Shown here one piece after another: positions 7,787 through 49,100 of a stretch of DNA of 64,000 nt. The DNA lies in contig NZ_CP142016.1 of NCBI RefSeq assembly GCF_035666175.1, forward strand, positions 1,116,001 through 1,180,000, written 5' to 3'. Position numbers and translations under genes: made by a program. The notes beneath the pieces are model-generated. The model was not told where the DNA came from. It was given only the letters and a program-made list of their open reading frames with translations, and made no database searches. Source of the stretch: Riemerella anatipestifer. GTDB taxonomy: Bacteria > Bacteroidota > Bacteroidia > Flavobacteriales > Weeksellaceae. Position 1 is the first letter of the stretch. Every line of letters starts with the position of its first letter.

Positions 7787-8766
7787 ACTCGTTGTGCATT
7801 TTAAATAATACTGATTTTTAGATGATTTAATTTTCTTTGGAAGATAAATTTATTGATATATTGAATAACCGTTGCGGCGGTTATTTTACTGATTATCCTT
7901 GTTTTAAAGCCTTCAAAAGTTTTAGCATTGTTTCTTTTAATCATAAATTGGTCGCAAAGTTGAGAGAAAAATGTCTCAATTCGTTTTCGCTTTTTCTTGT
8001 ACAATGAAAATTGAGGAATATAATCTTTCTGATTACTTCTCATTGGTGTATCTAATTTAATATTAGCATAGTTAAATAAATCTATTTGAACTTTTGCTGA
8101 TAAATAGCCTCTATCTCCAATTAAAGTACAGTTTCGCATTTGCTCACCAATATCTTTTAAATAGTGGATGTCGTGAACGGATGCAGGGCTTATATCAAAA
8201 TTCTTAATCACACCATTTAAAGAACATACTGCGTGTAGTTTATAGCCATAGAAATATAATTTCTGTGAAGCACAATAACCATATGTTGGTGAAGAATAGG
8301 ATTGCTCTTTACAAATTTTTGAACGAGTAGAACGAGCGTTTTCACAAACTTTCATTGGCATGCTATCAACGATAAAAATATCTTCAAACTCATTGAACTC
8401 CATCGAAATACGCTGTCTAATTTGCTCTGTTTGTAGGGATAGTCTTCGTTTTCGCTTATTGTAAACACTTCTTTCAATTTTGTTTATCAGAGAGTTTGGC
8501 AATTTTCTAAATAACTGTAATTCGCTATCAATACTCAAGTATTCAGCAGTAATATTAAGACTTATGACTTCTAAATCGCTCATTTTAGGTGTTCTTCTCT
8601 GATAACTAATCAGTTGATTTTCTGAAAAAAGTCCTAAAACTTCCAAAATTCTTTCATATATTTGCTCTATGTTGTTCATTTATATCGTTTTATAGCAAAA
8701 ACAATATACTGATTTTCAGTCTAATAAACAACTCTTGTTTTTTTCATTTCATAATGCACAACGGGT
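7787..8766 (-). mobile_element. Complete IS982-family insertion sequence (ISRa1-like)
   Basis: The 980-bp element is bounded by terminal inverted repeats: the left end begins ACTCGTTGTGCATT and the right end (reverse complement) ACCCGTTGTGCATT, 13 of 14 bases matching. A 7-bp direct repeat, TATATTA, flanks it (7780-7786 and 8767-8773) and is the target-site duplication. It carries one intact transposase gene. Size, ends and transposase fit the IS982 family, and I recognise it as similar to ISRa1 of R. anatipestifer; the exact name needs an ISfinder comparison. Intact ends plus duplication indicate a recent insertion. Confidence 0.93.
7801..8679 (-). CDS. IS982-family transposase
   Basis: 292 residues, full length for IS982 transposases, a DDE-type family. 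Segments typical of the family are FEDIFIVDSMPMKVCENAR (first catalytic Asp in VDSMP), the KLYFYGYKLHAVCSLNGVI block, LIGDRGYLS (second Asp), and the C-terminal RIETFFSQLCDQFMIKRN carrying the catalytic Glu. There is no frameshift, so the element should be able to move. The gene lies inside the terminal repeats and reads toward the HD phosphohydrolase. Confidence 0.95.
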   Translation of the reverse strand: MNNIEQIYERILEVLGLFSENQLISYQRRTPKMSDLEVISLNITAEYLSIDSELQLFRKLPNSLINKIERSVYNKRKRRLSLQTEQIRQRISMEFNEFEDIFIVDSMPMKVCENARSTRSKICKEQSYSSPTYGYCASQKLYFYGYKLHAVCSLNGVIKNFDISPASVHDIHYLKDIGEQMRNCTLIGDRGYLSAKVQIDLFNYANIKLDTPMRSNQKDYIPQFSLYKKKRKRIETFFSQLCDQFMIKRNNAKTFEGFKTRIISKITAATVIQYINKFIFQRKLNHLKISII

Positions 8767-40375: not shown

Positions 40376-42196
40376 ATGAAAACAAAGACTACAAAATTAA
40401 GTATATTCGCCTTTTTAGGTTTAGGGTTAGCAGCTTATGGGCAAAGTGGTAAGGTAGGTATTAACACTGGTAAACCTGCAGCTACACTAGAGGTACAACC
40501 TACTTCTACTAACTTAGCTGGAACTACTAACGAGGGGTTCATCGCTCCAAAACTTTCTAAAACGCGTATTGCTGCTATTGCTAGCCCTGTAGAAGGAACT
40601 TTGGTGTATGCCACAGACGAAGCCGACAGTAAAATTTCGGATTATACAGGTACAGATACCAAAGTAGCCAAAATCACAGAAAAAGGCTACTACTATTATA
40701 ATGGCACAGAGTGGGTAAAGAGTGCCGCAGGAACTTATAGCGAGATTTGGAAGGAGAATAAGTTTATGGACGGAAGTATTCTTAGAAGCGAGGTTATACT
40801 CCCATTCTTAGATTCGGAGGGGGAGAAAAGAAATGGGATAACCGCTTCTTTCCAATCTCCAGATAAACTGAATGAGCTTGGTTTTTCACTATCGGCTTAT
40901 GGGATAGGAATGAAAAGGTATCATAATGGGGTTACCCCTACAGCACTCGTTTTAGAAAAGTCAAGAGGCACAATAGATAACCCTACCGCTATACAAAGTA
41001 ATGATGGAATAGGTCAAATACACTTTAGAGTAGGAGACCCTACGAGTTCTTTTTCGGGAAATAGAGATGCTTCATTTTTCAGAACAACGGTATTAGAGTA
41101 TAATGATTTGAATTCGTTTTCATCTGAATTAGCTTGGGGAGTTAGACGAACAACAGACTCTAAACCCTATTTTGCGATGTTCCTCTCTCCTGATGCAGGG
41201 CTTGGAGTAGGTAATAAAGCTACTGATGAACGCCTTTTGGTAAGAGGAACTCCTGTTCATCAAAACATTGTTAAATTTAAGTCTGCCACCAATAATGATG
41301 CTTTTTGGATTACTAACCAGTCACATACTTACACCCGTGCATTTACAGCATTAGGAGAAGGGGCAGTAGGCTCTGTAATCAATATTCAAAACGATTCTAA
41401 AACAGGTACTACACAAGCCAACAGATGGATGTGGTTTAACGCCTACGACACTACCCCAGCCGACCCTGTATCTGGATACAGAGAGGGGTTGCAGTTATGG
41501 TCTTACAATACGGATAATTCTGCTCCAAGTTCAGGACCTAAACTCATTATTAAGGACAACGGAAATGTAGGGATAGGAGGTGCTTACGCTTATAAAACAA
41601 ATCCTGATATTGATGAGAAACTAGTAGTAGGTGGCTCTATTAAATCTACCGCATTAGCAGGTAATGGGCTTAAAAGTGTGATGGCAGATGAAAATGGTAA
41701 ACTGGTAGTAGGGACTTCTGCAACGGCTCTAGGCTTATGGGCTAACGATGCTAATAATAATTTAGCTAGATTGGCTACTACTTCTGATGGCACTACTGCT
41801 AGGACTAATGATAACCGCGTTACCATAGCAGACGACGGAGCGGTTACAGCTAAAAGTTTTATGGGATATAGCGGAGCTACCATCTTCCCAGACTATGTGT
41901 TCCAAAAGTATTATACAGGTACTTCTAGCCTCAAAGCAGATTATAGCTTTAAAACGCTTAGCCAAGTAGAAAACTTTGTAAAGACCAATGGGCATTTGCC
42001 AGGATATTTGTCAGCTTCTAAAATCAAAGAGCAAGGTTATATAGACCTTATGGCTACCCAGCTTACCAATGTAGAAAAGATAGAAGAACTCTACTTACAC
42101 TTATTAGAAAAAGACAAAGAGGTAAAGGCACTAAAAGCTAAAAATGAGGAACTAGAAACTCGTTTGCAAAAATTAGAAACTTTACTAAACCAGTAG
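40376..42196 (+). CDS. Secreted surface/fibre-like protein with C-terminal coiled coil
   Basis: 606 residues with a signal peptide (about 1-22, ending AAYGQ). The start of the mature protein (GKVGINTGKPAATLEVQP) is the pattern of flavobacterial surface proteins that begin VGINTxxPxATLxV. A long beta-rich middle is followed by DEKLVVGGSIKSTALAGNGLKS and then QVENFVKTNGHLPGYLSASKIKEQGYIDLMATQL and a heptad coiled coil to the C-terminus (about 560-606). This end resembles tail-fibre/intramolecular-chaperone-linked proteins of Bacteroidota, but no S74 catalytic pair is obvious. No type IX secretion C-terminal domain is seen. Role in adhesion is a guess. Confidence 0.75.
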   Translation: MKTKTTKLSIFAFLGLGLAAYGQSGKVGINTGKPAATLEVQPTSTNLAGTTNEGFIAPKLSKTRIAAIASPVEGTLVYATDEADSKISDYTGTDTKVAKITEKGYYYYNGTEWVKSAAGTYSEIWKENKFMDGSILRSEVILPFLDSEGEKRNGITASFQSPDKLNELGFSLSAYGIGMKRYHNGVTPTALVLEKSRGTIDNPTAIQSNDGIGQIHFRVGDPTSSFSGNRDASFFRTTVLEYNDLNSFSSELAWGVRRTTDSKPYFAMFLSPDAGLGVGNKATDERLLVRGTPVHQNIVKFKSATNNDAFWITNQSHTYTRAFTALGEGAVGSVINIQNDSKTGTTQANRWMWFNAYDTTPADPVSGYREGLQLWSYNTDNSAPSSGPKLIIKDNGNVGIGGAYAYKTNPDIDEKLVVGGSIKSTALAGNGLKSVMADENGKLVVGTSATALGLWANDANNNLARLATTSDGTTARTNDNRVTIADDGAVTAKSFMGYSGATIFPDYVFQKYYTGTSSLKADYSFKTLSQVENFVKTNGHLPGYLSASKIKEQGYIDLMATQLTNVEKIEELYLHLLEKDKEVKALKAKNEELETRLQKLETLLNQ

Positions 42197-42217
42197 CCTC
42201 GCTACTCTACCACAACC

Positions 42218-42252
42218 AAACACTCGTTCGCTATAAGAACGAGTGTTTTTTA
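42218..42252 (+). terminator. Terminator of the 606-residue surface protein gene
   Basis: AAACACTCGTTC pairs perfectly with GAACGAGTGTTT around a 7-base loop, followed by TTTTATC. Confidence 0.9.
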
Positions 42253-42295
42253 TCTTAATCATTGTATTTTCACAACCTAAATAACAAACAACAAA

Positions 42296-42546
42296 ATGTA
42301 CCTCATCGTATTTTTAGGACTAGGTCTATCTGTCTATGCCCAAAGCGGTAAAATCTACGGACACACTGACAGCGGTGGTCCTAGCCACTTGTACAAAGTA
42401 GAACCCACCACTGGGAATATTACCAAAACTATCATAATTATAAGACGCCACCAATGTTGATTGAGAAGATATTACCCCAAGATGATACCCACTTCTTTGT
42501 GGCAGATGTCGGTAACAATACTAATATACCACTGATAAAAAAGTAA
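42296..42546 (+). pseudogene. Decayed gene for a secreted protein of the WEDIAQDDTHF family
   Basis: The first 54 codons read as a secreted protein (MYLIVFLGLGLSVYAQSGK with a signal peptide, then a GGPSHLYKVEPTTGNITKT segment). A frame change then gives ATNVD, a TGA at 42462-42464 where the family has Trp, and EDIT; a further shift gives QDDTHFFVADVGNN before a final stop at 42544. Joined, these pieces spell ATNVDWEDI-QDDTHFFVADVGNN, a motif I know from flavobacterial secreted proteins. At least two frameshifts, one nonsense change and loss of the rest of the gene are implied. The leader resembles that of the preceding surface protein. Confidence 0.75.
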
Positions 42547-42581
42547 ACCGTACCTATACCCTCCCAAATGTATAAAAATTG

Positions 42582-42589
42582 TATCTTTG
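42582..42589 (+). promoter_or_regulatory. -7 box of the His-rich receptor locus
   Basis: TATCTTTG, ending 9 bp before the ATG at 42599. No consensus -33 box is visible, which would fit an activator- or repressor-controlled promoter. A TTG overlapping this box is not a credible start. Confidence 0.5.
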
Positions 42590-42598
42590 CGGGCAGGA

Positions 42599-42967
42599 AT
42601 GTTAAAGAAGTATCCGTTTATCTACTTAATACTAATTTTTACACTCTCCACAAAAATTCTAATTTTCGGTGGAGAGTGGTCTTTGGATACCTATACTCAT
42701 AACATTAGCAATCATCAAGAAAGAAATCAAGAAGACAACGAGTGCTTAAAAGGTATCATCTGCAATCATCACACTCATTTTAGTGCGCAGAAACATTACA
42801 AATCTTTTTTCTCTGCCTCTTACTTTGTTTTGCCTAAGCTGGTAAATATTCCCTCACTTCTGAAACATAAAAGGGAGAAAAAAATAGCAGATTATAGAAA
42901 GTGGCAGATAGTAAAATATACTTTCACTCATTCTAATAGAGGACCTCCTCATCTAAAACTATCTTAG
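42599..42967 (+). CDS. Small membrane-anchored protein with a Cys/His cluster
   Basis: About 122 residues of no family I can name. A hydrophobic N-terminal helix (about 6-23, FIYLILIFTLSTKILIF) is followed by a polar part that contains CLKGIICNHHTHFSAQKH (about 48-65), a C-x6-C-x-HH-x-H pattern suited to binding a metal ion, then a basic C-terminus. It is the first gene before a TonB-dependent receptor and a His-rich lipoprotein. A role as a metal-binding accessory or sensor of this uptake locus is inference. The frame is open to a TTG at 42587, rejected because it lies in the -7 box. Confidence 0.6.
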   Translation: MLKKYPFIYLILIFTLSTKILIFGGEWSLDTYTHNISNHQERNQEDNECLKGIICNHHTHFSAQKHYKSFFSASYFVLPKLVNIPSLLKHKREKKIADYRKWQIVKYTFTHSNRGPPHLKLS

Positions 42968-43090
42968 TTATTACAATATGCTACCCTTTCTACAAAGGTA
43001 GCATCTATCGGTTTTAATCAAATTTTGTAAAACTTTGAATATAAACTACCATTATTTTGTGGTGGTTTGTATCATGGTAAATCACTACAA

Positions 43091-45142
43091 ATGAATTTAG
43101 AAAAAATGAGAGGAATACTCCTTTTATGCTTCTTTTCGTGGGTAGTAGGCATTGCCCAAACCCCAAAAGAAAAAACAATAGATACGGTTAGTATCAGCGA
43201 AAATAGAAAACAAATAGTTCTAAACCCAATACAGAAAATAAAGGAGTATACAGGAAGTCATCTAGCCGAAATGTTAAAAAACACTCCTGGCGTTAGCATC
43301 GTACAAACTGGAGCTAATGTTTCTAAACCAATTATAGAAGGGCTATCTAGTAATCGTGTCTTGATACTACACAATGGTGTAAAATTATTAAATCAGGACT
43401 GGTCAGATCATCATGCACCAGAGGTAGATATTACAGCTTACCAAGATGTAAAAATTATAAAAGGGGCAAGGAGCGTTCGCTATGGTAGTGGAGCTTTAGG
43501 CGGCGTTATTCTATTATCCCCTAAACCTTTATCTTTTCATAATGGCTTGAATGGCTCCGTAAGTATTTCTGGAAACTCTAATGACGGGAAGTCTATTATC
43601 AATACCATTGTTAGGAGTTCTATAAAAAATACTTGGGCATGGCAAATACAACAGAGCTACCACTATTCTGGCGACTATAAAACAGCTAATTATTATGTGA
43701 ACAATACAGGCTACCGACAACTTAATACTTTGGGAATGATAGGCTACAAAAAGGGCATCTTTTCTGGAACATTAAGTTTCAACCGATTTTATACCGAAAT
43801 GGGTGTCTTTTATGGTTCATTAACAGGAAATATAGAAGAGTTTAGTCAAAAAATTAACGATAGCGCCCCCGAAAAAACCAGTGCTTTTGCTTACGATATC
43901 AATGCCCCTAAACAAAATACAACTCACCTTACACTAAAGTTTAATTCAAAATTAAATTTTGATACAGAAAATTTTGTAACTATTGATTACAGCTATCAAA
44001 ACAACTACCGAAAAGAATTTGATGTTAGGCGACTAGACAGAACAAGTATTCCTACTCAACATCTTAATTTAGATTCACACTTAATTGAAAGTATATGGAA
44101 TAAAACTTATTTCAAAAACCTAAAAGGAAGCATTGGACTACAATATCATTATCAAGAAAACACCAATATTCCAGGAACGGGCGTCCCTCCAACTATTCCT
44201 AATTATCTTCTTCATAATTATGCAGCTTTCTTTACTTCAGAATATTTTAAAAACTCTTGGAGAGCAGAATTGGGACTAAGATATGACTACCGCAAAACAA
44301 ATGCACTAGGCTATAATTTTTTAGGAAACTTATACGGTAGTAAAAGAACTTTTTCTAACCTTTCATACAATCTATTGGTAGAAAAAAAGCTGGCTGAAAG
44401 ATGGAACTATTCTTTAGATTTTGGTTTAGCGTGGAGAAGTCCAGAACCTTATGAAATGTATGTAAATGGCAAGCAACACGGTATCCCTATTTTTTATATT
44501 GGCAAAGAAGATTTAGAATCTGAAAAAGGATTTAAAATATCTCAAAAAATAGGCTACCTCCACAAAAATCTCAAAATTGATGTATCTACTTTTTTACAAC
44601 CAATAAATGGATATATTTACAGTATCCCTAGTGGTAACTATAAATATCTTTTTTCTGGCCCCTCTATTATCTTCCAAATGGTTCAGAGTAATGCTTTTTT
44701 TAGAGGTGGGGACATTTCCCTAGACTGGAAAATATCATCTCATTTGCGTTATAAAACAAATGTATCTGTAGTCTATGCTAATGATGCCAAGACTAAAGAC
44801 TATTTGCCAATGATTCCTCCTCTTACTCTTTACCAACAGTGGAAATGGCAAATACCCTCTAACCTACTCAATTATCTATACATTACTGCTGAACATCAAT
44901 ACGCCGCACAACAGAAAAGATACAATCCCAAACAAGATCTAATGCCACCTCCTAGTGCTTATCATACATTTGGATTTAATATTGCAACCGAATTCTACTA
45001 CACCAAACAGAACACCTGTTTTGTAGCACTAGGCATTAGCAATCTTACCAACCAACAATATAAAAATTATACTGACCATTTTAGATATTTTGTTCATGCT
45101 AAAGGAATAGATTTCCAATTAAAAACCATTATTAATTTTTAA
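43091..45142 (+). CDS. TonB-dependent outer membrane receptor, probable metal or haem type
   Basis: About 683 residues. A signal peptide (FFSWVVGIAQ) leads to the plug domain with GSHLAEMLKNTPGVSIVQTGANVSKPIIEGLSSNRVLILHNGVKL and then QDWSDHHAPEVD, a His/acid-rich loop at the place where ZnuD-like and related metal receptors carry such residues. KIIKGARSVRYGSGALGGVI closes the plug; the beta-barrel ends with FQLKTIINF. There is no CarboxypepD domain. ATG 43091 is taken as start (another at 43106). It is followed 20 bp later by a His-rich lipoprotein. Substrate is inferred as zinc, copper, iron or haem, and is not established. Confidence 0.9.
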   Translation: MNLEKMRGILLLCFFSWVVGIAQTPKEKTIDTVSISENRKQIVLNPIQKIKEYTGSHLAEMLKNTPGVSIVQTGANVSKPIIEGLSSNRVLILHNGVKLLNQDWSDHHAPEVDITAYQDVKIIKGARSVRYGSGALGGVILLSPKPLSFHNGLNGSVSISGNSNDGKSIINTIVRSSIKNTWAWQIQQSYHYSGDYKTANYYVNNTGYRQLNTLGMIGYKKGIFSGTLSFNRFYTEMGVFYGSLTGNIEEFSQKINDSAPEKTSAFAYDINAPKQNTTHLTLKFNSKLNFDTENFVTIDYSYQNNYRKEFDVRRLDRTSIPTQHLNLDSHLIESIWNKTYFKNLKGSIGLQYHYQENTNIPGTGVPPTIPNYLLHNYAAFFTSEYFKNSWRAELGLRYDYRKTNALGYNFLGNLYGSKRTFSNLSYNLLVEKKLAERWNYSLDFGLAWRSPEPYEMYVNGKQHGIPIFYIGKEDLESEKGFKISQKIGYLHKNLKIDVSTFLQPINGYIYSIPSGNYKYLFSGPSIIFQMVQSNAFFRGGDISLDWKISSHLRYKTNVSVVYANDAKTKDYLPMIPPLTLYQQWKWQIPSNLLNYLYITAEHQYAAQQKRYNPKQDLMPPPSAYHTFGFNIATEFYYTKQNTCFVALGISNLTNQQYKNYTDHFRYFVHAKGIDFQLKTIINF

Positions 45143-45162
45143 CCATTTAATTTTTATTTTTT

Positions 45163-46050
45163 ATGAAAAAGAAATTTTCATTCAACCATTTAGTTATGGT
45201 ATTGATTTTTATCGTTAGTGTGATAAGTGTACAATCCTGTAATAGGGACGACTCTCCACTTGCACCAACCGACGAAACTACTGATAAAGGGCACGAAGAG
45301 TGGGCTAAAGTCACTTTTAAATTCACTAAAGGACATCTTCATGGTACAAATTTTCACGGAGACCCTATAAATCCTAAAACCAAATATTTCAAATCAGTAC
45401 AAGAGATTTCTTATGAAATTAATGAAAAGGGGGATGTAGTCCCTAGTACCCAAGAACCCATTCGTTTTATACAAGGAAGCGAATATGGACTTGAGATAAC
45501 TTATTATAATAAAAAAGGGGAAGTCGTTAATCAAGAATTTGTTTCTGAAAAAATGGCACCAATTCATCAACACTTTTTTATGATTAAAGATACAAAATCA
45601 TTAGAAGGTAAACCTCTTAGTTTACAAACTCTAGATGTACTTAATTACACCTATAGAGACACTGTACCTTGGGATAAAATGATACGCTATGGAGGAGAAT
45701 TAAGAGATACTAAAGATCCTATAGGATTAAAAGGCTATTTTTCTGTCAAGGAAAAATATATCAATTTTGCTCTAAACGTTGTCTTAGTTCATGTTATTAA
45801 AGGAAACAAACTAGATGACAATGGTAATCCTTATCCATTCCATAATCCTAGCAAAAGAATTTTAGGAGTACAAGACCTCAATTTGAATATACCCGTAAGA
45901 GTATACGCTGCACATCCTGAAGGTGATTATGAAATTGATGACCTTATCAACGATATTGCAAAAGAATTTAACATTAGTTACGAAGAAGCTGAAAAAGATT
46001 GGGATGAATCATTTGATGCACCTCATGACAGCAGCAAATATTGGCTATAA
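45163..46050 (+). CDS. Histidine-rich lipoprotein of the TonB receptor locus
   Basis: 295 residues with a lipoprotein signal (IVSVISVQSCNRDD; Cys at about 26). Histidines cluster in GHLHGTNFHGDP (about 57-68) and in MAPIHQHFFMI (about 127-137), with further HVIKG, HNPS and AAHPEGD sites. The body looks beta-rich. Lipoproteins next to TonB receptors often bind the ligand at the cell surface or hand it over, so a metal- or haem-binding role for the pair is likely, by inference. The family is not one I can name. A strong hairpin follows the stop. Confidence 0.75.
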   Translation: MKKKFSFNHLVMVLIFIVSVISVQSCNRDDSPLAPTDETTDKGHEEWAKVTFKFTKGHLHGTNFHGDPINPKTKYFKSVQEISYEINEKGDVVPSTQEPIRFIQGSEYGLEITYYNKKGEVVNQEFVSEKMAPIHQHFFMIKDTKSLEGKPLSLQTLDVLNYTYRDTVPWDKMIRYGGELRDTKDPIGLKGYFSVKEKYINFALNVVLVHVIKGNKLDDNGNPYPFHNPSKRILGVQDLNLNIPVRVYAAHPEGDYEIDDLINDIAKEFNISYEEAEKDWDESFDAPHDSSKYWL

Positions 46051-46084
46051 ATCTTTTCTTCTTCAATAAAGCATGAACAAAACA

Positions 46085-46117
46085 AAATGGGACTACATAT
46101 AATATGTAGTCCCATTT
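46085..46117. terminator. Hairpin between the His-rich lipoprotein gene and secA
   Basis: AAATGGGACTACATA pairs perfectly with TATGTAGTCCCATTT around a 3-base loop. A T-rich stretch (TTTTGTTTTG) follows on the minus strand, so it serves secA best; it probably also slows plus-strand transcripts. Confidence 0.75.
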
Positions 46118-46134
46118 AAATAATACTAAATGCT

Positions 46135-49100
46135 CTATGCTGGTATCTCTCCCTTATAAAGGAAAGAAATAATTTCCTTATTGATTTTATCTACCATCTC
46201 ACTAAACAAGTGGAAAGACTCTTGCTTATAAATCACCAATGGGTCTTTCTGCTCGTAAACTGCTCCTTGAGAAGAACGGCGTAAGTCGTCCATTTCTCTT
46301 AGATGAAGTTTCCAATTCTCATCAATAATAGATAAGCAAATGTTTTTCTCAAAATCGTTGATAAGGCTATCACACTGCGTTTCGTATGCTTCTTTAAGAT
46401 CAGCGAGAATAGTCATTGTCTTAGTACCATCACTAAAAGGCACTTGTATCATCTTAAACATATTACCTTGGTTTTGGTACACATTTTCAATAATAGGGAA
46501 CGACTTTTCTTTAAGCAAATTAAGTTTCATCTCATAATCTTCTTGAGCCTTTTTGAAAACAATATCGGTAAGTTCCTTAACTGTTTTATTTTTAAAATCC
46601 GCTTCGGATACAGGAGCTTCCATAGTAAAGTATTTAATAACTTCAAACTCAAAATCTTTGTAATCTCCGTGCATCTTGGTTTGATTAACAATAGAATGAG
46701 ACACATCAAATATCATATTAGCAATATCATACTTTAAGTGGTCTCCAAAGAGTGCATTCTTTCTTCTCTTATAAATCACATCTCTCTGCTTATTCATTAC
46801 ATCATCGTACTCCAACAATCTTTTACGAATACCAAAGTTGTTTTCCTCCACTTTCTTCTGTGCCCTTTCAATAGACTTAGTAATCATGGAGTGCTGTATT
46901 ACCTCGCCCTCTTTATGCCCTAGTCTATCCATCATTTTTGCAATTCTTTCTGAACCGAAAAGACGCATCAAATTGTCCTCTAACGATACATAGAACTGTG
47001 AACTACCTGGGTCTCCTTGTCTTCCTGCACGACCTCTCAACTGTCTGTCCACACGGCGAGAATCATGTCTTTCTGTACCAATAATAGCCAAACCTCCAGC
47101 ATCTTTCACTTCTTTACTCAGCTTAATATCGGTACCACGACCCGCCATATTAGTTGCTATGGTTACAACACCAGCCCTTCCTGCTTCGGCAACAATCTCT
47201 GCCTCCTTTTTGTGAAGTTTAGCATTAAGCACTTGGTGCGGAATTTTTCTTAATTGTAATGCTTTAGAAAGTAGTTGCGAAATTTCTACCGAAGTCGTAC
47301 CCACTAAAACAGGTCTTCCTGCCGAAGTTAATTTCTCCACTTCTTCTATTACAGCATTATATTTTTCACGATTGGTTTTATATACTAAATCGTGTTTATC
47401 ATTTCTTTGTATCGGACGGTTGGTCGGAATCACCACCACATCTAATTTATAGATTTCCCAGAACTCGCCTGCCTCTGTTTCGGCAGTACCCGTCATACCC
47501 GCTAGCTTGTTGTACATACGGAAATAGTTCTGAAGAGTAATTGTAGCAAAAGTCTGAGTAGCCGCTTCTATCTTTACATTTTCTTTAGCTTCTATAGCTT
47601 GATGCAAACCGTCTGAATAACGGCGTCCTTCCATAATACGACCCGTTTGCTCATCTACAATCTTTACCTCACCATCCATCACCACATATTGGTCGTCTTT
47701 TTCAAAAAGGGTGTATGCCTTTAGAAGCTGGTTAAGCGTGTGTATCCTCTCTGATTTTACAGCAAAGTCTCTAAACAAGTCCTCTTTCTTAGCAAACTCT
47801 TCTTCTTTAGGTAAATTCTGTGCTTCTAATTCCGCCAATTCAGTTCCTATATCTTGTAGAACGAAGAAATTAGGGTCAGAGTTTCCTTGAGACATATACT
47901 CAACCCCTTTGTCTGTAAGGTCTATCTGATTATTTTTTTCATCAATCACGAAATAAAGGTCTTTATCTACCTTTGGCATTTCACGATTGTTATCTTGCAT
48001 ATATTGTGCTTCTACTTTCTGTAAAAGCGTTTTGTTACCTGTTTCTGAAAGGAACTTTATCAGTTGTCTATTTTTAGGTAAACCTCTGTACGCTTGTAAA
48101 AGTTTAAAGCCACCTTCTTTAGTATTTCCTTGAGTAATTAGTTTTTTTGCTTCGTGGAATATTGTAGAAACCGTTTTCTTCTGAACATCTACAATTCTAT
48201 CTACAGAAGGCTTAAGAACATCAAACTCTTGTCTGTCTCCCTGAGGCACTGGACCTGATATAATCAAAGGCGTTCTAGCATCATCTATCAATACAGAGTC
48301 CACCTCATCTACGATAGCATAGTTAAGTTCACCCTGTACCATTTCGTTAGGTGAATTTACCATATTATCTCTTAGGTAATCAAAACCAAACTCATTATTA
48401 GTTCCGTAAGTAATGTTACATTGATAAGCCTTTCTTCTAGCATCAGAGTTAGGCTGATGATTATCAATACAATCTATACTAAGCCCGTGAAATTCGTACA
48501 ATGGCCCCATCCAAGCGGAGTCTCTTCTCGCAAGGTAGTCATTCACCGTTACCACATGCACTCCTCTTCCTGGTAAGGCATTAAGGTAAATAGGTAGTGT
48601 ACCTACTAAAGTTTTACCTTCCCCAGTAGCCATCTCTGCTATCTTACCGCCGTGTAAGACCACACCTCCTATAAACTGAACATCGTAATGAACCATGTCC
48701 CACTGCACCTTAGTCCCTGCGGCATCCCAATGATTTAGCCAAACCGCCTCATCACCTTCTAGCACAACGAAATCTTTAGTTGCAGCTAAAGCTCTATCTC
48801 TATCGTTAGCCTTTACTCTAATTTCTCCATTTTGAGCCCATCTTCGTGCCGTTTCTTTTAGTACAGCAAAGGCTTCAGGAAGAATATCTGTAAGTACTTT
48901 CTCTTCTATCTGATAGGCTTCTTTTTTAAGCTCTTCTATTTTGTTGAATAAAGCTTCTTTTTCATCAACATCTTTAGAGGTTTTAATTTTCTCCTTAAGT
49001 TCTTCTACTTGAGAGGTTATTTTAGAGGTTGCTTCTTTAATTTTATTCTGAAACTCTTCTGTTTTTTGTCTCAAACCATCGTCCGAAAGTTTTCCTACTT

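Follow-up and report, generated by a model that had tools for sequence, protein, structure and literature searches.

A predicted ribosome-arrest leader with a putative metal-sensing motif precedes a ZnuD-like receptor gene and a lipoprotein gene in Riemerella anatipestifer

The stretch of DNA analysed here (the window) comprises 64,000 nucleotides of Riemerella anatipestifer (contig NZ_CP142016.1, positions 1,116,001 to 1,180,000) and holds three consecutive genes on the plus strand: a small open reading frame (ORF), called the leader below (42599..42967, with its ATG at 42599 and its stop codon ending at 42967; 122 aa), a TonB-dependent receptor (43091..45142; 683 aa from ATG 43091, with ATG 43106 or TTG 43067 as alternative starts), and a lipoprotein (45163..46050; 295 aa). 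An earlier note had described the three co-directional genes as a metal or haem acquisition unit that included the small 122-residue protein; the ORFs bear out the orientation and the length, and the proposed function is likely for the ZnuD/OprC-like receptor and the His-conserved lipoprotein but is not supported for the small protein. Our analysis suggests instead that the small protein is probably a self-stalling arrest leader, comparable to CruR of Bordetella pertussis, that reads a metal during its own synthesis and turns on the receptor and the lipoprotein, an assessment that leaves aside whether the metal is zinc.

The leader combines a hydrophobic N-terminal segment (a 17-residue stretch from residue 7, mean hydropathy 2.28), a Cys/His motif and a C-terminal RGPP. 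The putative metal-sensing motif, C49-x5-C55-x-H57-x2-H60 (42743..42778, plus strand), lies 58 residues before the Arg of the predicted ribosome-arrest site, R114-P117 (42938..42949, plus strand), which itself ends five residues before the stop. The Cys/His motif had been noticed earlier but with the spacing C-x6-C-x-HH-x-H; the actual spacing is C-x5-C (C49-LKGII-C55), followed by N-HH-T-H. The RGPP had been overlooked, although no other part of the small protein is as well conserved. In the parts of the published work available for this analysis, both RGPP and RAPP are described as causing bacterial ribosomes to arrest, with the more stable arrest at RGPP, and of all tetrapeptides RGPP is reported to be the most strongly under-represented across ten major bacterial groups (PMC12992588).

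We surveyed 197 genomes of the family, the genome of the window (G000) included, and inspected gene neighbourhoods at 16 stretches. The receptor has matches in 20 of the 197 genomes (E<=1e-70) and the lipoprotein in 16 (E<=0.001). Fifteen of the receptor genomes match at E<=1e-100, and all fifteen also hold the lipoprotein; they are the lipoprotein genomes minus G071, and the five remaining receptor genomes (E 1e-71 to 1e-84) are without it. The small protein itself finds matches in 9 of the 197 genomes (E<=0.01), several of them with internal stops, because it diverges fast. By position, 11 of the 15 operon genomes (G000, G001, G002, G005, G019, G033, G034, G042, G052, G066, G077) have a small ORF of 111-127 aa ahead of the receptor. 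The co-occurrence suggested earlier thus stands, with receptor and lipoprotein together in 15 of 15 and the small ORF in 11 of those, and to the note's question whether the small protein always precedes this receptor type, it was not found in the other four. In three of these four, all of one genus (G076, G050 and G065; loci L031, L032 and L033), the leader position is taken by an ORF of 133 aa that is rich in Cys and looks like a zinc ribbon by eye, and the receptors of these loci have an N-terminal extension.

Alignment of the 11 syntenic small ORFs leaves only C55, R114, P116 and P117 invariant and C49 and G115 nearly so, with 13-24% identity between the window leader and the eight distant ones. 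Among the six same-genus leaders, two of which are near-identical to the window leader, C49, G52, C55, H57, H60 and RGPP are invariant, as are K68, S74, L78, P79 and K106. These six form a type of their own, with C-x4/5-C followed by two aligned His and without a CxxC at 43-47 residues before the Arg: the window leader has C-x5-C, its same-genus relatives have C-x4-C, and in one leader (L034) the His spacing is x3 rather than x2. The distance from the second Cys to the Arg is 58 residues in five of the six and 60 in one.

A wider set of 42 leaders carries RGPP (22), RAPP (19) or RPPP (1), with the motif 1-12 residues from the stop; three leaders with 10-12 residues after the motif were all retained. 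By hydropathy measure alone, 39 of the 42 reach at least 1.6 at the N terminus. Counted back from the Arg, 26 leaders have a CxxC at 43-47 residues and 18 have a C-x-H-x2-H at 58-61; nine carry both motifs and seven carry neither. For spacing statistics the near-duplicates L026 and L027 were removed, so that 40 of the 42 leaders were used. The distance from C-x-H-x2-H to the Arg remains within 58-61 residues with a standard deviation (sd) of 0.83 (n=16), compared with an sd of 7.17 to the first possible start codon; for CxxC, the sd is 2.91 to the Arg (n=27, with one outlier at 58 and 26 of the 27 at 43-47) versus 11.74 to the first start codon. The leader motifs are therefore spaced from the C-terminal RGPP and not from the N terminus, and a motif position fixed relative to the stalled codon is what a sensor acting on the ribosome requires. 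In CruR, the CXXC-RAPP distance is reported as 45, kept within one or two residues (PMC9426467, in the part available).

The rarity of the arrest motif was assessed at several scales. Among 53 mechanically called window ORFs of at least 120 aa (19,443 residues), [RKA][AG]PP occurs a single time, in the leader. Across G000, a DNA pattern that covers RGPP/RAPP and also admits Ser codons has 13 sites (both strands, any frame) versus 21 for the reversed control, and just 2 of the 13 lie in the last 20 residues of an ORF that is 60 aa or longer. Both of these ORFs sit 80-125 bases before a receptor of the window receptor's family, and those two receptors are the only G000 matches to the window receptor returned at E<=0.001. 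The same-genus genomes G001 (82 versus 63) and G077 (31 versus 40) are without a depletion of the kind seen in G000; together they hold 113 pattern sites, and among the 30 sites listed, the only one near the C terminus of an ORF with 60 aa or more is that in the G077 operon leader.

The second of the two G000 ORFs belongs to another leader-receptor-lipoprotein module outside the window (L208, G000:C1:830673-834074). Its leader (113 aa, CxxC type) ends RGPPSI 80 bases before a 790-aa receptor with an EHAPSVD plug, and the 189-aa lipoprotein carries HNHDE and HDDHTHD. Both module types lie a few kilobases apart at one locus of G034 (L028; 4520-8043 and 11141-14592, reversed), where the second leader ends RAPPTIA.

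We also looked upstream of 80 named receptor relatives for ORFs no shorter than 50 aa whose last 20 residues include R[AG]PP; all counts from this set are among the matches listed, and four of the 80 loci hold fewer than 450 bases ahead of the receptor frame. Such an ORF is present in 29 (24 of the first 40 relatives, 5 of the last 40), with 3-339 bases between its end and the open receptor frame. When ORFs of 50-200 aa are counted one by one, 29 of 150 in the upstream zone have the motif, versus 3 of 2347 elsewhere at the same loci. The leader-bearing relatives include Capnocytophaga, Sphingobacterium, Porphyromonas, Pedobacter, Hymenobacter, Bacteroides, Parabacteroides, Mucilaginibacter and Zunongwangia, and four leader-bearing loci lie outside Bacteroidota. 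Two RGPP-ending ORFs (L070:720-1053 and L082:6988-7318) do not precede a matched receptor and are candidate leaders of other genes.

Upstream of the leader, TATCTTTG (42582..42589, plus strand) matches TAnnTTTG, which we take to be the Bacteroidota -7 promoter consensus. It starts 17 bases upstream of the leader ATG and ends 9 bases before it. Of 41 leaders, 30 have a TAnnTTTG element in the interval from -90 to +60 around the first start codon, a count made without a chance control, and none occurs within the window leader-receptor gap. The earlier note had proposed looking for a Zur or Fur site near 42540-42590; the best 9+9 palindrome within the 90 bases before 42599 pairs just 5 of 9 positions, joint-lowest among the 41 loci scanned, and no palindromic operator is evident there. 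Just upstream of the leader, 42296-42540 appears to be the remnant of a short secreted-protein gene; a 79-aa ORF sharing its start is seen in L027 and not in L026.

The leader-receptor gap (42968..43090, plus strand; 123 bases) is more structured than shuffled sequences (z -5.1), with predicted hairpins at about 42978-43004 and 43039-43072. Structure beyond shuffles is found in 6 of 12 loci (window -5.1, L027 -5.8, L040 -4.1, L035 -3.8, L026 and L030 -2.8) and is not confined to the nearest relatives of the window locus. Rfam yields no match over 42000-46300. A further hairpin (46085..46117, 15 pairs) lies between convergent genes beyond the lipoprotein. Such a strong hairpin had been taken to close the three-gene unit; the hairpin exists, but its T-run is on the minus strand, and therefore the best fit is a terminator of the convergent gene.

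The receptor falls under all NCBIfam cut-offs, its best sub-threshold models being haem receptors (116.5 bits against a cut-off of 316.85), followed by copper and zinc; the ZnuD model NF038289 gives 61.8 bits against a curated cut-off of 950. A profile of the 15 receptor sequences searched against the Protein Data Bank (PDB) finds ZnuD best (8e-26), then the haem receptor PhuR (2.6e-22). The AlphaFold2 model (pLDDT 85.5, pTM 0.85) likewise has ZnuD as its best Foldseek match (1.7e-35). In VIA comparisons, ZnuD leads (4rdt_A, Z 40.3, rmsd 2.1, 583 aligned; 4rvw, 39.3), ahead of OprC (up to Z 37.5, rmsd 2.4, 578 aligned) and the haem receptor ChuA (35.8, rmsd 2.8, 573 aligned). The predicted fold is ZnuD-like, and the fold by itself does not separate the receptor from other TonB receptors.

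The plug motif DHHAPEVD reported earlier is indeed present, as WSDHHAPEVD (43400..43429, plus strand). The zinc ligands of ZnuD, according to the portion of the published account at hand, are Asp-99, His-100, Glu-340 and His-499. H108 of the window receptor falls opposite His-100 in the alignment and is conserved in all 15 receptors, as is H463, one residue off His-499; Glu-340 falls outside the alignment. Position 107, facing Asp-99, is Asp in 8, His in 3, Gln in 3 and Ala in 1 of the 15, and Asp-106 is present in all seven receptors without Asp-107. The likeness of this predicted metal site to that of ZnuD is good and not exact. Compared with ZnuD of Neisseria meningitidis (4rdt, 4rvw, 4rdr), the receptor thus offers the best profile and fold match, a plug His aligned with His-100 and a His cluster in the loop region of His-499, but shares just 16% identity and stays far under the NCBIfam ZnuD cut-off; moreover, ZnuD is Zur-controlled in Neisseria, whereas the window genome has no Zur-like match.

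A separate alignment (A7) shows H602 and H669 in the six receptors nearest the window receptor and not in the other 24, and the loci of these six carry the lipoprotein (weakly in L064); the two residues may contact the lipoprotein or a metal, with relatedness as a confounder. No match to the window receptor was found in viral contigs. The R. anatipestifer receptor OMP76 was considered as its identity and set aside, since it has 710 aa in the available part of PMC10281475 and was so taken as a different protein. In the accessible part of a zntR study, receptors were lowered in a zinc-loaded mutant, under locus tags not matched to the window receptor.

The lipoprotein contains both His clusters named earlier, GHLHGTNFHGDP and IHQHFF. 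Seven of its eleven His are conserved, H58, H60, H65, H137 and H210 in 14 of 14 relatives and H44 and H135 in 13 of 14, while H9, H227, H251 and H288 vary. No Pfam or NCBIfam model matches above cut-off, and no PDB sequence at E<=10. Its structural model is beta-rich and of weak confidence (pLDDT 70.5) and has no Foldseek match at E<=0.001; RhoGDI, the best VIA hit (Z 6.8, rmsd 3.7, 117 aligned), lies in a commonplace score range and was not used as a fold assignment. By analogy, the lipoprotein may be a metal-capturing partner of the receptor, possibly as a lid or cap as in other receptor-lipoprotein pairs. BtuB-BtuG of Bacteroidota (PDB 8blw, 8p98) is likewise a TonB receptor with a lipoprotein partner, the difference being that the window lipoprotein is without a solved relative by sequence and its model without a Foldseek match at the above threshold. 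In G071, a short lone lipoprotein relative (L041) adjoins a Zur-like gene, with no receptor or leader in the stretch inspected.

From these observations we infer the arrest, the metal sensing, the direction of regulation, the single transcript, the Rho step and the role of the lipoprotein, which may fit together as follows. A single promoter just before the leader would give a transcript whose first ORF is the exported or membrane-anchored 122-aa leader. When metal is scarce, the ribosome would stall at the C-terminal RGPP and keep the transcript open or protected, which would allow synthesis of the receptor and the lipoprotein. Available metal would instead bind the Cys2-His2 motif about 58 residues upstream, by then presumably outside the ribosome tunnel, and release the arrest; the leader would be completed and downstream expression would fall, a fall that in CruR runs via Rho-dependent termination. 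A Rho gene is present in the genome of the window. The receptor would carry the metal ion through the outer membrane, and the lipoprotein would assist it by binding the metal.

CruR is the closest worked-out system. In the portion of PMC9426467 (2022) available, it is a copper-sensing DUF2946 leader with CXXC and a C-terminal RAPP that heads a three-gene TonB-transporter operon, CruR-BfrG-BP2921 of B. pertussis. The window locus resembles it in having R-x-P-P a few residues before the stop, a Cys motif at a set upstream distance, an export-type N terminus and the leader as first of three genes, with a TonB-dependent transporter as second after a gap of 123 bases (162 in CruR). It differs in having RGPP rather than RAPP, C-x5-C-x-H-x2-H rather than CXXC, a spacing of 58 rather than 45, a His-rich lipoprotein rather than PepSY_TM as third gene, and a receptor nearest ZnuD and OprC. 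It also lacks DUF2946: the window leader has no match to PF11162 at E<=1, nor has G000 any, and Pfam and NCBIfam give nothing above cut-off for the small protein. DUF2946 matches occur in 3 of 35 related leaders (E<=0.1, best 0.0012) and in 16 of 148 phylum genomes (E<=0.01), two of them above cut-off. Judged by these tests, the window leader may work like CruR and does not belong to the DUF2946/CruR family.

As for the metal, we regard zinc as the likeliest, at roughly even chances, followed by copper and then by haem or another. Zinc is favoured because ZnuD is the nearest structure, because the leader motif is Cys2-His2 and because the G071 lipoprotein relative adjoins a Zur-like gene. This Fur-family gene has Zur proteins as its two best PDB matches. 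Relatives of its product (E<=1e-8, a wide threshold that also takes in other Fur-family proteins) are found in 124 of the 197 genomes, yet in none of the 15 operon genomes (0/15 versus 124/182; Fisher p 1.3e-7, kinship ignored); by genus, they are present in 1 of 8 operon genera versus 15 of 25 others (p 0.039). The genome of the window has a single Fur-family match, Fur-like by eye from its sequence, and no Zur-like match at E<=1e-8, so that ZnuD-type control by Zur was not found there. The main texts of two published R. anatipestifer Fur studies are without mention of Zur or zinc. It is conceivable, though we hold it only tentatively, that Zur's job in controlling a ZnuD-like receptor and its lipoprotein has passed, in Riemerella and genera related to it, to a zinc sensor that acts as a nascent peptide.

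Several observations weigh against the reading of the locus as a metal-responsive arrest leader with a ZnuD-like receptor. No leader was found in four of the 15 operon genomes (G017, G050, G065, G076) or at a second G033 locus, and therefore the leader is not obligatory; 51 of the 80 named receptor relatives are without one, and the leader of G042 ends RPPP instead of RGPP. Gap structure is uneven among the 12 loci (z -0.2 to -5.8, from single-sequence folds), and in six of them it does not exceed that of shuffles. The lead of ZnuD is small, as its third entry (4rdr, Z 36.1) lies below several OprC entries and ties with ChuA, and the counterpart of ZnuD Asp-99 in the window receptor is a His at residue 107, with Asp-106 next to it. 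Zur could be missing simply because the genomes are small and host-adapted; the link of its absence to the operon is weak at genus level, and 58 genomes are without both the operon and a Zur-like protein.

Copper sensed by the same arrest-leader mechanism, with an OprC/BfrG-like copper importer as the receptor, is the alternative that survives best, and we consider it unlikely but worth keeping in view. CruR senses copper (PMC9426467, available part), the CxxC at 43-47 is present in 26 of the 42 leaders, and OprC is the second-best structure: it trails the best ZnuD entry by 2.8 Z and outscores the third. The window leader type, however, keeps the Cys2-His2 and lacks the CxxC that supplies the copper-sensing residues in CruR, a lack that also tells against our preferred reading. 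In the alignment, the OprC copper-site Cys, which we take to be Cys143, is matched by Asp-103 in the window receptor, and the Met of that site by His-107. Also against copper, G071 has its single lipoprotein gene beside a Zur-like gene.

That the locus serves the uptake of haem or of a haemophore, under a leader of the same kind, appears improbable. The best sub-threshold NCBIfam matches are the haem receptor models mentioned above, and His in the plug loop and loop 6 are described, in the accessible literature, as common to HasR and ZnuD. Nonetheless, the best ZnuD and OprC entries outrank ChuA, ShuA, PhuR and HasR, with a small gap to ChuA, and ZnuD itself was, by the partial account available, originally misannotated as a haem receptor.

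The small protein as a working periplasmic or membrane metal-binding uptake component, as first proposed, is not supported and has in our view a very low probability. The hydrophobic N terminus of 39 of the 42 leaders and the conserved Cys and His would suit such a role, but the sequence outside the motifs is hard to align, motif spacing counts from RGPP rather than from the N terminus, and a passive protein has no evident reason to keep the most-avoided tetrapeptide (PMC12992588, available part). The conserved parts are the RGPP arrest motif and Cys/His at near-fixed distances from it, as in published arrest leaders. Least probable of all is an arrest leader that monitors export or membrane insertion (like SecM, VemP or ApdA) and not metal: the leaders look secretory or membrane-anchored and the first-studied RAPP leaders monitor Sec or YidC in the accounts at hand, yet the downstream genes are metal-type receptors and lipoproteins rather than Sec genes, the Cys/His motifs are conserved, and CruR regulation is reported to have outlasted loss of export features (PMC9426467, available part).

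Elsewhere in the window, 7801-8679 is a copy of ISRa1 (IS982 family), which shares 99% identity or more with its counterparts in ten plasmids of Riemerella; it matches 10 of 72,556 plasmid records, all ten from Riemerella, and so supports the assignment to this genus.

The earlier note had regarded the small protein as new, and in this it went too far. RAPP/RGPP small proteins before TonB-related genes were published in 2025 as a class across Gram-negative bacteria (PMC12992588), three years after CruR, and the leader fits this class, so its kind is already known: a small (<300 aa) ORF with a hydrophobic N terminus, the motif near the C terminus and a receptor directly downstream. The available part of that paper does not describe the window locus or the Cys2-His2 variant with its spacing rule, and 'zinc' does not occur in its main text. 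In the open-licence papers searched, an absence that proves nothing by itself, we found no zinc-sensing arrest leader. Within the accessible parts of the same literature, we likewise found no Cys2-His2 leader type without CxxC, no two-position spacing rule, no pairing of such a leader with a His lipoprotein and a receptor like ZnuD, and no inverse association with Zur.

In the literature found, as far as it was accessible, nascent-peptide metal control has been worked out for copper in Proteobacteria only. The locus described here is a compact and deletable Bacteroidota candidate with a different sensing motif, no Zur-like gene found and a ZnuD-like receptor downstream. If the tentative zinc-sensor reading is true, the Cys2-His2 motif just outside the ribosome tunnel would read zinc during translation of the leader, and the spacing (43-47 or 58-61) would serve as a ruler on which the metal motif could be exchanged for another metal specificity. 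The locus may also help to explain why anyone looking for Zur or Fur boxes at loci of this kind could come up empty in Riemerella, bird pathogens that face nutritional immunity.

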